Source: a candidate division WS1 bacterium
GTDB taxonomy: Bacteria; Armatimonadota; Zipacnadia; Zipacnadales; UBA5352
DNA length: 32,998 nt
Direction: 5' to 3'
NCBI GenBank assembly: GCA_003566775.1
Contig: PXBW01000197.1
Location: 1-32,998 of the forward strand
In this document: piece after piece, positions 2,682-7,838 of the stretch
Position numbering within the stretch: position 1 is the first letter of the stretch
Layout of the letters: each line of letters opens with the position of its first letter
Notes under the pieces: model-generated
What the model saw: only the letters and a program-made list of their open reading frames with translations
Database searches by the model: none
What the model was told of the DNA's origin: nothing
Made by a program: the position numbers and the translations under genes

Positions 2682-5153
2682 ATGCGGACCCTCCGCAAGC
2701 ATCTAGACCTTCCGTCAGTGTCTGATCCGGTTTCCGATGAGACGGCGTTCGCGATCTTTCTGCCACGCCGCACCACGCGTCTGCTGTATCGTGTCCTCGC
2801 GATGATCGCCGGGATCGCGGGGGGAATCCTGTACGCGCGTTTCGTGTTGGACGATGTCGGTCTCTGGTGGACGGCCGCTACCGCTTCTGTCGGCGGCATC
2901 TTCATGTACGTGGCCATCCTGATGCCCGGCGCCGTCACTCATCACGCTCGCAAGTCATATCTGCGATTGCTCCTGGGGATTCGAACGCGCAGTCTCAGGA
3001 AGGCAATAGCGGCAGTTTGTCGGCGGGCGGAGGAGCAGGTGAAAGAAGAGGAGGACGATCCAGAGGCATGGCAAATCCTGGGTGTGACATCATTGCTGGC
3101 GGGGGATACTCAGCGTGCGGCCATGGCCCTTGAGCGCGCCGCTGAGTCGGGTGGGAACAGCGGAAGCCGGCTCAATCTATCAGTCGCGTTGGCCGAGACA
3201 CAGGATGTCAAAGAGGCGGCCGAACTGCTCCTGCATTCCAGCGAGAACGGTGCCATGGGCGATGCCGCCAGACACAACATCGGTGTGTTGATGTCAAGAA
3301 GACCCCCGCAGGGGGTCGTTGACCGAATCGTAGAGCGCCTCGACACTCTTCGGGTGCCGGCAGTCCTCAGCAGTCTCGGGACGTGGGAGCTTGAGCGGGG
3401 CGATCTCGAGATGGCGGAGCATTACTTCAACGCGGCGATTGAGGAGGATCCCTCATTGGTGGCGGCGCGGGCGAACCTTGCGCTCGTCGCCTATCGCAGA
3501 GGGCGCACCGCGGAGGCAATCGAGCAGATGCACGAGGCATCGGTGCTGGATCCTCTGCATCCGGACCTCGCGAACAGCCTCGGTGCCCTGGTGTGCGCGG
3601 ACGGGCGTCCGATGGTGGCTGCGAAGATACTGCGAAAGGCAGCCACGCTTGCTCCCGGAAGCCCTGCGGTGGAGTTCAACCGCGGGACCGCGCGGCTCGC
3701 CCTGGGGCAGTATCGGGACGCCGTGGACAGCTTCATAGATCCGCACGTACGCGACGCCTGGCCGGTTCATTCCGCACACAATGCAGCACTTGCGCTGATA
3801 GGTCTTGGACGCATGAATGCCGCGCGCGAACACCTTGAGCAGGGCCTCGAGCATGATGAGAATGATCTCGATCTTATCAACAATCTCGGCTGTGTCGGAT
3901 GGTGTGAGGGTGATGATGGAGCTCTCGAGCATTTGGCCGAGTTTGAGGGAAGCGTCGAGCATGAGGGGATCCTGCTGAACATAGTGGCCCACCGTATCGC
4001 GACGGGTCAGACAGAGGAATCGCTGCGAGTGCTCGGTGGACTGAGGCAACGGCGTGTGCAGGATGCGGCAATACCCTTCCTGCGGGGGCTGGCGTTGCTC
4101 GTCGAAGCGGTACGCCTCCATAAACCGGATATGTCGAGGCGGCAGAGGCAGAGCTTCTTTGAGGCACTGCATCGCTGCACGAGGCCCTTCAACGCGGCAG
4201 CGGATTCGGAGAGCACATCCGTAGAAGCGCGCGCGAATCTGGCACTTTATCGCTATCTGCGGCTTGACTTCGCCGAGGCGGCGGAGGACTTTCGCGAGAT
4301 CGCAGAGGAACTCCCCCAGGACGGATTTCTTCAGTTCTGTGTCGGCACGGCGCTTGCGGAGCATGCGGGGCAACTGCAGACAGAGCATTCGGCGGAGAGG
4401 GGCGAGTTGGTCGGCGGAGCACGGGACGCGCTGCGGCGAGCCCGGCGGCATCTTGAACGGGCGGTCGAGCTTGGCGAGGTAACCGGAGACGCATACTGCA
4501 ACCTCGGCATGTGTGCGTACGATCTTGGTGACGTAGAGGGCGCATTGACCGCGTTCAGGCGCATGATGCAGCTTGAGGACAGTGCCGATGCCGCGAACAA
4601 TCTTGCGATTGTTCAGGCCCGCGAGGGGCAGCAACTGCAACGCAAGGCGCGGGCAACGAGTCTCGTGAGCAAGCAGCGTGAGCAGAAGATGCTTGAGCAG
4701 GCGAGGACCCATCTGTCCACCGCCCTGCATTACTTCGAGAAGGCACTACATTACACGCCTAAGGATCCCGTGCTTCACGGTAACACCGGGCTCGCCTACA
4801 TGCTCAGGAATCGAGGCGGTGACGTGGAGGCTGCTCTGCGGCACTGGCAGCGGATGTTGGCGCTCGGTGGCAAGTACATGGGGCGTCGCTACGAGGAGCT
4901 TACTGCCCTGGCGCACGGTGAAGGTGAGCGCGCGCAGTTCGACGAGACACTGATGGCGTTCCGTTCATTGGACCCCGCCCGGTGCATGGTGACGATTCCA
5001 CCGCGGCTATCGGGGCCGCGGTACGCGCTGCGCCCCATCTCCGATGAGATTGACTGGACTTTGGTGAGCGATGATCCTCAGGTGCGTGAGGTTCTGCGCA
5101 GGCGTGAGCGTCTTGCAGCGCTGCGCAAGCGCCTTGCGCGACTCTCCATGTGA
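2682..5153 (+). CDS. Membrane-anchored tetratricopeptide-repeat protein
   Basis: 823 residues. An N-terminal cytoplasmic-looking segment is followed by two membrane helices (about 35-54 and 61-84). The rest is a long helical solenoid of TPR units with the usual small/aromatic spacing, for example YFNAAIEEDPSLVAARANLA, IEQMHEASVLDPLHPDLANS and YFEKALHYTPKDPVLHGN. Several stretches have an A/L-rich spacing with E/R-rich helices that suggests degenerate repeats. TPR arrays are protein-interaction scaffolds; nothing indicates a catalytic domain, so the partner is unknown. Start ATG 2682 has AGGGA seven bases upstream. The gene stands alone between two non-coding leaders. Weak similarity to envelope-biogenesis TPR proteins is possible but cannot be asserted from sequence alone. 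Confidence 0.88.
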   Translation: MRTLRKHLDLPSVSDPVSDETAFAIFLPRRTTRLLYRVLAMIAGIAGGILYARFVLDDVGLWWTAATASVGGIFMYVAILMPGAVTHHARKSYLRLLLGIRTRSLRKAIAAVCRRAEEQVKEEEDDPEAWQILGVTSLLAGDTQRAAMALERAAESGGNSGSRLNLSVALAETQDVKEAAELLLHSSENGAMGDAARHNIGVLMSRRPPQGVVDRIVERLDTLRVPAVLSSLGTWELERGDLEMAEHYFNAAIEEDPSLVAARANLALVAYRRGRTAEAIEQMHEASVLDPLHPDLANSLGALVCADGRPMVAAKILRKAATLAPGSPAVEFNRGTARLALGQYRDAVDSFIDPHVRDAWPVHSAHNAALALIGLGRMNAAREHLEQGLEHDENDLDLINNLGCVGWCEGDDGALEHLAEFEGSVEHEGILLNIVAHRIATGQTEESLRVLGGLRQRRVQDAAIPFLRGLALLVEAVRLHKPDMSRRQRQSFFEALHRCTRPFNAAADSESTSVEARANLALYRYLRLDFAEAAEDFREIAEELPQDGFLQFCVGTALAEHAGQLQTEHSAERGELVGGARDALRRARRHLERAVELGEVTGDAYCNLGMCAYDLGDVEGALTAFRRMMQLEDSADAANNLAIVQAREGQQLQRKARATSLVSKQREQKMLEQARTHLSTALHYFEKALHYTPKDPVLHGNTGLAYMLRNRGGDVEAALRHWQRMLALGGKYMGRRYEELTALAHGEGERAQFDETLMAFRSLDPARCMVTIPPRLSGPRYALRPISDEIDWTLVSDDPQVREVLRRRERLAALRKRLARLSM

Positions 5154-5417: not shown

Positions 5418-7838
5418 ATGCGACACTGCAGTGTCACGACGGCACTGATGTGTGCATTGCTCTTCATGGTCGCGATACCGGGGACCGCGCAGTTGCCTCG
5501 CTTACCACGCGTCCCTGACGCAGAGGACATCGCAGGGGAAGTGCTGCGAGGACGAATTCCGGGCCTCGATCAGATCCTGCGGGAAGACCCCGCGATCGCC
5601 ACCACCTTCGACGACGCAGTTTACGGCGTTTCGATCATCGACGGCTTCGATCCGGTGGTGACCGCGCCGATGAGCCAGCTTCCGTACACCGGGGACGGTG
5701 CATTCCTGGTTGCTCTGCCCGGCGTATTTGAACTGGAAGCACAATCTTTCTGCCTCCATGCGGGCACCCATGGGCCGGGTCAGGGTGAGGGCTATCTCTG
5801 GGCACCACTGAGGGGCGCCCAGGCGCGGATGATCCAGCACGTGATGGATGCCTATATGCAGCATCCGGAACTCGACCAACGCCGCGTGCAGTCGCTCATC
5901 TGGGGCATCCAGTCAAAGGCGCGAATCAGTAACATGAATCCAGAGGTGCGGGAGGTTGCGCGGGTGCTGCTCACGAGGGAGCAGATCCGCAGTCTTGACG
6001 GAGGCGCGCTGGGAGATGTCCCGCGTGAGCTCTTCGACCAGGCGTTCGTGGATATTCCACGTGAGGTGCGGATGGTGCTGGAGGCGGAGGCGATGCTCCG
6101 CAATCGGCTCCGGCAGGAGGTCTTCAATTTCGCGGAACTCGAGCGCATCTCGGTTCTTGCAGGCGATCCTCCGCGTGAGCTTAACGGCGAGGACGTGCCC
6201 CGAGGGCGCTGGTCATTTGAGCCGAGTGGGTTCTTTGTGCGCTACGAGCCACGCGGATACAGGCGCACGCAGATTCAGCTCTACGCGCCGGAGCGCTTTC
6301 GGGCCGTCACTGACGCCATGAACCGTATCACCTCGCTCACCGACCACACCGGAAACATCATCGAACTCAACTACGCCGGAGATGGTCCCACCGCCGCAGA
6401 TGGTGACACCGATGTGCTGGCACATGCGCTTGAGGCGGTGACGCTGATTGCAGCGGGCCGTGAGCCGGTCGAGTGGCGCGCCACCGGGGAAGATATCGTA
6501 CTGACCGGTCTGCCCTCAGGACGCGGCAGCCTCCCGGGCGAGTTGAACGCGCTCTATCAGAGGGGAGTGACCGCGCTGTCGGATGTGCGCGAGCTTGCGC
6601 GCAACGTTGATGGCGCGACACCGGACTCGCCGCTGGTCGGGAATGTGATCGATCTGGCCCATCTCTCGACGGCGGTGCAGCGACTCGTGGAGCGAAACGG
6701 TGTGACACCTGACGGCATGGATCTGCAGGTGATGGCGCACCGTGCAGTAGCCTCGGAACTTGCTGTACTCTTGCTGGACGCCGAGGAGCAGGCCGCGTTC
6801 CGATCGCCGAAGCGTGAGACGCGACTGGCAGTGCTGCCGTGGGCGACCGGAGCCGTCATCGACCTGGGCAGGCCGGCATGGACACAGCTCATAAGCAGCG
6901 GCACGCCGGAGTATCGGCCCTCGCGCGGCACCGGAACTCCCGCGAGTCGGGGGCGACAGCGGCTCGGCACCTCGGGCGCGTCTCACGAACTGCCGACCTG
7001 GGACCCGCGAACAGATCGCACCGATGATCCACGCAATGGCCCCTCCGGCAGCCAGGGCAAGTCCGCTTATGGTAATGCGCGGGATGGTATCAACGCGATT
7101 CAGCGTGGCCAGACTGTTGTCAATGTTGCTACAGGACCACGCTCATGGGCCCGGGGCAGGATCGGTTTTGGGATACCCAACTATCTCTTCGGACGCATCC
7201 TCGACTTCAACTTCGATACGTGGGGGAAGGCCACCGCGGCGATCGGCACCGATCCACCCGTTGCCGACTACGATGTGATCGCGATGCCCGAACCGATTTC
7301 GATCCCGACCTTCGCACCGGATGAGGAGGTCTCCCCCGAACACACCGCCGCGGTGCAGGCGCTGGCGGATGTGATGACCCAGCAGCTTGCGATCGTGCGC
7401 GCGGCGAACGTCACCGAAGACCGTCTTGGCGGTGCGATGGCCGCCGAAGACGAGGAGTGGACCATGCGCCAGGCCGCCGCTTTGACGGATTACAAGCATC
7501 AGGCGGGCCATGGGATGATGGAGATCGCGCGCGGCATCGAGGACGTGCTCGACGCGTTACGCAACTCCGATGTCAGTGAGCTTATCGTCACACGCGAGGC
7601 GGTGCTGGAGTACCAGCAGCGACTGCGCACCGATGGCTTCGATGCAGAGGAGCGGCAGGCCGCGCAGATACTCCTCATCGATGACGAGAAGCTTCAGACG
7701 CTGCTGGCCGAGCGGATCGCCGCCGACCCAGACGAACTTACCGGGGACCTGATGGTGAAGTATCAGGACTTCGCTCAGGCACTCTGGTGGCTGGGGATGA
7801 GCTGGCGGAATCTGCCTGCCTCACAACCGGGCGGGTAA
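5418..7838 (+). CDS. Large secreted protein with a thioester-like Cys/Gln signature; function unknown
   Basis: 806 residues with a signal peptide (residues 1 to about 24, ending PGTAQ). ATG 5418 is chosen over an in-frame TTG at 5376 because GGAGGTG sits six bases upstream and the signal peptide then starts cleanly. After cleavage I find one cysteine, C112 (5751-5753), in SFCLHAGTHGPGQGEGYLW; 46 residues later comes RRVQSLIWGI with Q158 (5889-5891). These fit the two motifs of thioester adhesin domains (aromatic-C-hydrophobic, and hydrophobic-Q-x-x-hydrophobic-W). A second conserved-looking block is GRWSFEPSGFFVRYEPRGYR (about 265-290). Residues about 500-570 are Gly/Ser/Arg-rich, probably a linker, followed by a helical C-terminal region. 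No membrane anchor or sorting signal is visible. Likely co-transcribed with the gene 71 bases downstream. That it is a gene is secure; the thioester reading is inference. Confidence 0.85.
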   Translation: MRHCSVTTALMCALLFMVAIPGTAQLPRLPRVPDAEDIAGEVLRGRIPGLDQILREDPAIATTFDDAVYGVSIIDGFDPVVTAPMSQLPYTGDGAFLVALPGVFELEAQSFCLHAGTHGPGQGEGYLWAPLRGAQARMIQHVMDAYMQHPELDQRRVQSLIWGIQSKARISNMNPEVREVARVLLTREQIRSLDGGALGDVPRELFDQAFVDIPREVRMVLEAEAMLRNRLRQEVFNFAELERISVLAGDPPRELNGEDVPRGRWSFEPSGFFVRYEPRGYRRTQIQLYAPERFRAVTDAMNRITSLTDHTGNIIELNYAGDGPTAADGDTDVLAHALEAVTLIAAGREPVEWRATGEDIVLTGLPSGRGSLPGELNALYQRGVTALSDVRELARNVDGATPDSPLVGNVIDLAHLSTAVQRLVERNGVTPDGMDLQVMAHRAVASELAVLLLDAEEQAAFRSPKRETRLAVLPWATGAVIDLGRPAWTQLISSGTPEYRPSRGTGTPASRGRQRLGTSGASHELPTWDPRTDRTDDPRNGPSGSQGKSAYGNARDGINAIQRGQTVVNVATGPRSWARGRIGFGIPNYLFGRILDFNFDTWGKATAAIGTDPPVADYDVIAMPEPISIPTFAPDEEVSPEHTAAVQALADVMTQQLAIVRAANVTEDRLGGAMAAEDEEWTMRQAAALTDYKHQAGHGMMEIARGIEDVLDALRNSDVSELIVTREAVLEYQQRLRTDGFDAEERQAAQILLIDDEKLQTLLAERIAADPDELTGDLMVKYQDFAQALWWLGMSWRNLPASQPGG

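Follow-up and report, generated by a model that had tools for sequence, protein, structure and literature searches.

A candidate Cys-Gln thioester in an undescribed family of exported bacterial proteins, with predicted selenocysteine variants

To our knowledge, internal thioesters serving covalent binding have been reported only from the surface proteins of Gram-positive bacteria and from the complement/alpha-2-macroglobulin family. The window analyzed here, a stretch of 32,998 nucleotides from a candidate division WS1 bacterium, encodes, in a lineage of the Gram-negative type, a secreted protein in which an earlier note, made from the sequence alone, had recognized a cysteine motif resembling that of thioester domains (TEDs), an observation that is upheld here. 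The question raised by this locus is whether such a protein can form an internal thioester and, if so, between which side chains. The preferred answer, with a probability of roughly 0.6, is that the window protein is exported and serves covalent attachment in a TED-like manner, through a C112-Q514 thioester, target binding included. Its family, which spans many bacterial phyla, has not been described before.

The features of the gene and its product are collected in the table. Three cysteines occur in the open reading frame, two of them (C4 and C11) in the signal peptide, which leaves C112 as the sole cysteine of the mature protein, as had been noticed from the sequence. The 203-residue insertion region starts with a single RHS/YD-like repeat at about residues 294-320 (window 6294-6392), with no further copies found in the window protein; among 86 family members, 14 have weak matches to the RHS_repeat model and 11 to YD_repeat_2x. 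Searches of the window protein against Pfam and NCBIfam gave no match, an LPXTG anchor is absent from it and from the member C-termini compared, and no Pfam stalk domains of the isopeptide or ester type were found in it or in 20 diverse members. In the 4.4-Mb assembly, the gene is preceded by those of a UbiA-type prenyltransferase and a TPR protein and followed by those of a protein with a weak, sub-cut-off DUF1559 match, a cyclase and a spermine-synthase-domain protein; no gene neighbor common to family members across phyla was found.

Features of the TED-like protein and its gene, in window coordinates
Feature	Coordinates	Strand	Basis
Gene, 806-aa secreted TED-like protein	5418..7838	+	ORF translation
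Sec signal peptide, residues 1-24 (MRHCSVTTALMCALLFMVAIPGTA, followed by QL)	5418..5489	+	By eye; similar signal peptides start homologues
C motif, residues 110-126 (SFCLHAGTHGPGQGEGY)	5745..5795	+	Invariant Cys; registers on the thioester Cys of 6/7 class II TEDs
C112 (TGC), predicted thioester Cys; TGA in 3 relatives	5751..5753	+	Alignment
T motif, residues 154-165 (QRRVQSLIWGIQ), helix; Q158 and W162 invariant	5877..5912	+	AlphaFold model, alignment, TED TQxxPhiW motif
R264-W265-S266, start of beta region; R and W invariant	6207..6215	+	Alignment
Insertion, residues 293-495, missing from short members	6294..6902	+	Length comparison among members
Q motif, residues 505-520 (TGTPASRGRQRLGTSG)	6930..6977	+	Invariant Gln; registers on the class II TED acyl Gln
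Asp/Gly-rich linker and mostly helical C-terminal extension, residues 521-806; absent from short members	6978..7835	+	Alignment

Homologues are present in 22 of the 41 genomes of the window's order and in 61 of 291 genomes of the phylum Armatimonadota, the named relatives being Armatimonadota genomes of candidate division WS1 (class Zipacnadia). A genome scan by DNA patterns yielded 153 relatives, 80 of which were retained; represented among them are Acidobacteria, Aminicenantes, Cyanobacteria, Meiothermus, WOR-3, Chloroflexi, Ignavibacteria, Sphingomonads and Lysobacter (for the most part metagenome assemblies, with taxon names as in the records). Two of the three patterns used lie in the Cys region and bias the scan towards it; members of the phylum found by profile HMM alone are free of this bias and display the same conservation. 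No relatives were found in viral, phage and plasmid collections, and no scanned member has a curated-model match above cut-off in its N-terminal domain. Minimal members of 300-370 aa consist of the TED-like domain only, and some members start with lipoprotein-type signal peptides, consistent with export. One member from Ignavibacteria (L132) carries an adhesion-associated AMOP domain behind the TED-like domain (ORF residues 373-446, E 4e-9).

Alignment of 81 complete homologues from about ten phyla (MAFFT) reveals nine invariant columns, namely G102, C112, G116, G133, Q158, W162, R264, W265 and Q514 in window numbering. C112 is kept in all 22 homologues of the order that cover the site and in 81/81 complete members, a constancy well beyond chance, and the site is likewise Cys or, in three cases, TGA in the members that the profile HMM alone detected. 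As it is the sole Cys conserved across the family, a disulfide is rejected and the earlier view of C112 as an unpaired cysteine is confirmed. The reading of the protein as a Cys protease or hydrolase was dropped for want of an invariant His (the best is found in 66/81). C112 lies within S110-F-C112-L-H-A-G (5745-5765), and the C motif has P at C+8, G at C+11 and Y at C+14. The second motif quoted in the earlier note, R-R-V-Q158-S-L-I-W162, likewise lies where it had been located (Q158 codon, 5889-5891), and Q158 is as constant as C112, both in the first alignment and among complete members (81/81), so that the proposed co-conservation of the two residues is established. R264-W265-S266 is nearly fully conserved family-wide, and we know of no TED counterpart of it.

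Co-conservation with C112 extends to a second glutamine. Q514 (6957-6959), the predicted acyl Gln, lies in RQRLG and is invariant in 81/81 members; the alignment rows end 12 residues past the Q motif, so the end position of this motif was known beforehand while its columns are those of MAFFT. The consensus of the segment, (F/Y)DPS..xAVPxNTxRQRLxQS, takes the form TPASRGRQRLGTSG in the window protein, containing Q514; it is internal in long members and forms the very C-terminus of short ones, about a dozen of which end at this segment. The Gln is retained in outliers despite changes in the following residues (KQILGLS, SQIGGDS, MQAVAAS, RQPSGQS), and in all of about 26 complete divergent members found by HMM (for example GHQLILMS, GFQTLGSS, GSQNLGGS and NQTLGLS). 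Q287, the first guess for the acyl Gln, was dropped because only 41 of 86 members have Q at this position and 32 have E. In the window protein, with its insertion, the Gln lies 402 residues from the Cys, as against 203-209 in the shortest members. The assignment of the crosslinking Gln to Q158 thus probably gives way to Q514, Q158 being the Gln of the TQxxPhiW motif, and with it falls the objection that the Cys-Gln spacing is shorter than in classical domains.

Three motifs characterize published TEDs: the C motif, TQxxPhiW on a helix and, about 130-195 residues further on from the Cys, a strand that contains the separate acyl Gln. In the family, the [YFL]C-Phi-zeta motif of TEDs occurs as F-C112-L-H, with Cys in 81/81, and TQxxPhiW occurs on a helix as V-Q158-S-L-I-W162, with V/I in place of T. 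The conserved acyl Gln of the TED strand Phi-Q-zeta-Phi-Phi has its counterpart in Q514, where the preceding residue is R/S/K and not hydrophobic. The correspondence was examined on seven plasmid-encoded class II TEDs, with TIE-pLS20 as the starting point, by sliding the family profile without gaps over about 300 possible places per TED and over shuffles of the same protein. The best-scoring place had the family Cys on the TED Cys in six of the seven (p 0.002-0.056). For the Gln motif it coincided with the acyl-Gln position, also in six of the seven, with a consistent register and with scores that are individually significant in only two. These TEDs are mutually related, so that the six matches are not six independent tests; two of the proteins are less than 30% identical to TIE-pLS20. 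The matches include the published C68/Q256 pair of TIE-pLS20, in which Q256 was derived from a model and conservation (PMC8092201), and which is C57/Q245 in the numbering of the record used. In the plasmid collection, 107 records, chiefly from Bacillus and Listeria, have matches to class II TED genes of the TIE-pLS20 kind.

Comparisons over the whole domain are less favorable. The Pfam TED model matches 5 of 86 members below cut-off (best E 0.012), over the Cys-to-Trp segment in both members inspected in detail, the better of which reaches 15.9 bits for a cut-off of 22 bits; the window protein has no match. Whole-domain profile comparison with class II TEDs by HHalign is non-significant (31 of 300 column-shuffled profiles reach its score); two of its three runs put the best piece at the Cys motif. 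Mini-HMMs given full family weight were too specific to inform.

AlphaFold models of the domain without its Q motif (pLDDT 88.9, pTM 0.85) and of a complete short cyanobacterial member, L086 (pLDDT 89.9, pTM 0.90), are confident. The former contains helices before and over the T motif (model 109-119 and 127-138, that is residues 136-146 and 154-165), in agreement with the helix that had been proposed ahead of the Gln motif. In L086, whose C74, Q120 and Q283 correspond to C112, Q158 and Q514, the element order is the same as in TEDs (strand-Cys, helix, Q/W helix, strand-Gln), and the C-terminal Gln segment lies beside a strand with a pLDDT of 96-97, which counts against a disordered tail or a sorting signal. 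Foldseek PDB searches with the two models did not retrieve the TED fold, a six-stranded barrel with a three-helix bundle, and the top 50 matches contain no TED, nor did the domain without its Q motif find one among viral structures. Rhs strands were matched only in the first PDB search, made with that domain, and a PDB sequence search with two profiles gave Rhs repeat matches and chance matches only. As neither whole-profile HHalign nor Foldseek provides support, the family is called TED-like and is not filed as a TED member; it probably functions like a TED and may be a distant one.

Further information on C112 comes from the three Armatimonadota members with TGA, each of which has a single in-frame TGA within the domain, exactly at the Cys codon. 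The contexts are QSY-TGA-LHAG (L160, genome G126), QSY-TGA-LRAG (second copy at L162, G108) and QSY-TGA-LKAG (L164, G049), and the Q motif is retained in all three. At L162, tandem paralogues occur, one with Cys (TGC; 1435-2967) and one with TGA at the same codon (2986-4464). The three members occupy three places in the tree, each nested among Cys members, one placement having low support. With the published bacterial SECIS model (PMC13188914), a SECIS-type hairpin just downstream of the TGA is accepted in 3/3 TGA members versus 4/107 Cys members. Genes for tRNA-Sec and SelA are above cut-off in all three genomes, as is SelB in G126 and G049; in G108, which is 88% complete, no SelB is above cut-off. 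The machinery alone is weak evidence because about half of the phylum has SelB above cut-off (141 of 291 genomes), and it is the TGA position and the hairpins that carry the argument. From their sequences, the three members are predicted selenoproteins, with selenocysteine at exactly the residue equivalent to C112. The main text of a 2026 review of prokaryotic selenoproteins (PMC13188914) includes neither thioester proteins nor Armatimonadota. An origin of these TGA codons in sequencing errors or in pseudogenes is highly improbable: all the sequences come from metagenome assemblies or draft genomes, yet the domain has a single in-frame TGA in each of three lineages, at the Cys codon every time, accompanied by the hairpin contrast, tRNA-Sec and SelA described above.

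An Aminicenantes member (L112) was excluded from the selenocysteine set since its stop is a TAA (4757-4759) at another site in the domain, and it is probably a pseudogene or a sequencing error; its existence is the other point in favor of errors among the TGA members. The window's own genome (contigs C78 and C185) encodes SelA, SelB and tRNA-Sec while its family member uses TGC. In another genome (G016, contig C31:2536-3663), a SelB match itself contains one in-frame TGA and lies near a tRNA-Sec at 4438-4529.

In the mechanism proposed, the C112 thiol would attack the side-chain amide of Q514 after export, with loss of ammonia and formation of a buried internal thioester. The helix carrying Q158 and W162 would brace C112, in the role of the TQxxPhiW helix of TEDs. 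A partner nucleophile (a lysine amine or hydroxyl, for example) would then break the thioester, so that Q514 links the protein covalently to the partner; in the TGA members, a selenoester would take the place of the thioester. We infer bond formation, the C112-Q514 pairing, attachment to a partner and the selenoester. Given the lack of a stalk and of LPXTG and the existence of minimal members made of the TED-like domain only, equal likelihood is given to crosslinking of the envelope or matrix and to adhesion to other cells. The wider proposal of a third kind of thioester domain, widespread in diderms and using a Sec-Gln selenoester in some lineages, is tentative, with the odds against it.

Selenocysteine usually marks redox enzymes, and a conserved Gln and Trp next to Sec/Cys are reminiscent of the Sec-Gln-Trp center of glutathione peroxidases. 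The main rival is therefore an extracytoplasmic thiol or seleno enzyme, peroxidase- or reductase-like, whose Cys/Sec redox center would be lined by Q158, W162, R264 and Q514, any TED ancestry being structural only. Exchange of Cys and Sec at one site is typical of redox selenoproteins, according to PMC9312934. Six polar or aromatic positions are wholly invariant, and Q158, W162, R264 and W265 are conserved as fully as the presumed bond residues, which is not so in TEDs; judged from the alignment, this pattern looks more like an active site than a thioester domain. Against an enzyme of this kind stand the lack of a resolving Cys and of a conserved His, the absence of any redox family match in Pfam or NCBIfam and of a redox fold (Foldseek on the complete short member gave no significant match), and the correspondence of the Gln segment with the TED acyl Gln, which it leaves unpredicted. 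It is regarded as unlikely. Less probable still is a TED-derived fold devoid of a thioester, with C112 as a free reactive thiol (for metal or disulfide exchange, for example) and RQRL as a structural or processing motif. The missing firm TED membership in Foldseek and Pfam would agree with it, as would the glycine/proline-rich linker that adjoins RQRL in long members, but the Gln outlasts its basic neighbors, unexpectedly for a processing site, and its segment is confidently folded and a plain C-terminus in about a dozen short proteins. The C112-Q158 thioester of the earlier note, within a short loop-helix unit, retains very little credibility: both residues are invariant and probably close, as the TED motif Gln contacts the Cys backbone, but Q158 is helical and matches a Gln that in solved TEDs sits on helix alpha 2, hydrogen-bonds to the Cys backbone and is not required for the bond, being dispensable for thioester formation in Cpa, and the equally invariant Q514 matches the known acyl Gln.

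If the C112-Q514 reading is true, a widespread diderm family would show covalent protein attachment to be far commoner than thought, including in free-living bacteria without an animal host, and its minimal members offer an easy system for chemistry tests. With selenocysteine at a bond-forming site, selenium would be put to an unusual and perhaps non-redox use, and a Sec-Gln selenoester would be the first candidate for one that is internal, genetically encoded and used in covalent attachment. The tandem Cys and Sec paralogues of L162 provide a clean natural comparison within one genome.

Among known systems, the CxEQ thioesters of the complement/alpha-2-macroglobulin family would share with the present one the chemistry of an internal Cys-Gln thioester, if the bond forms. 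Their Cys and Gln are three residues apart. These thioesters have been described as not related to TEDs. The TGA members resemble known bacterial selenoprotein families in the alignment of TGA with an invariant Cys, the downstream SECIS-type hairpin, SelA and tRNA-Sec, and differ from them in having no redox motif such as CxxU. Class I TEDs (SfbI, Cpa, CpTIE), compared by description, have in common with the family the [YFL]C motif, the TQxxPhiW helix and an acyl Gln far downstream, at 129-153 residues from the Cys versus 203-209 in short family members; the family departs from them by its diderm, mostly uncultured lineages, the lack of LPXTG and stalk, the RHS-like insertion, additional helices, the missing Foldseek and above-cut-off Pfam matches, and Sec variants. 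From class II TEDs (TIE-pLS20, BaTIE, SaTIE; PF20610/PF08341) it differs by its occurrence in diderm, mostly uncultured lineages, without LPXTG or a detected isopeptide stalk, by a variable RHS-like insertion where these have an Ig-type beta-sandwich, and by more helices, Sec variants, no retrieval by Foldseek and no Pfam match above cut-off. The likeness to class II TEDs includes the order of Cys strand, helix, Q/W helix and later acyl Gln, the pattern C-Phi-x6-P-x2-G-x2-Y around the Cys and P-x5-QRL around the acyl Gln, an insertion between the head and the Gln strand, and an N-terminal position behind the signal peptide.
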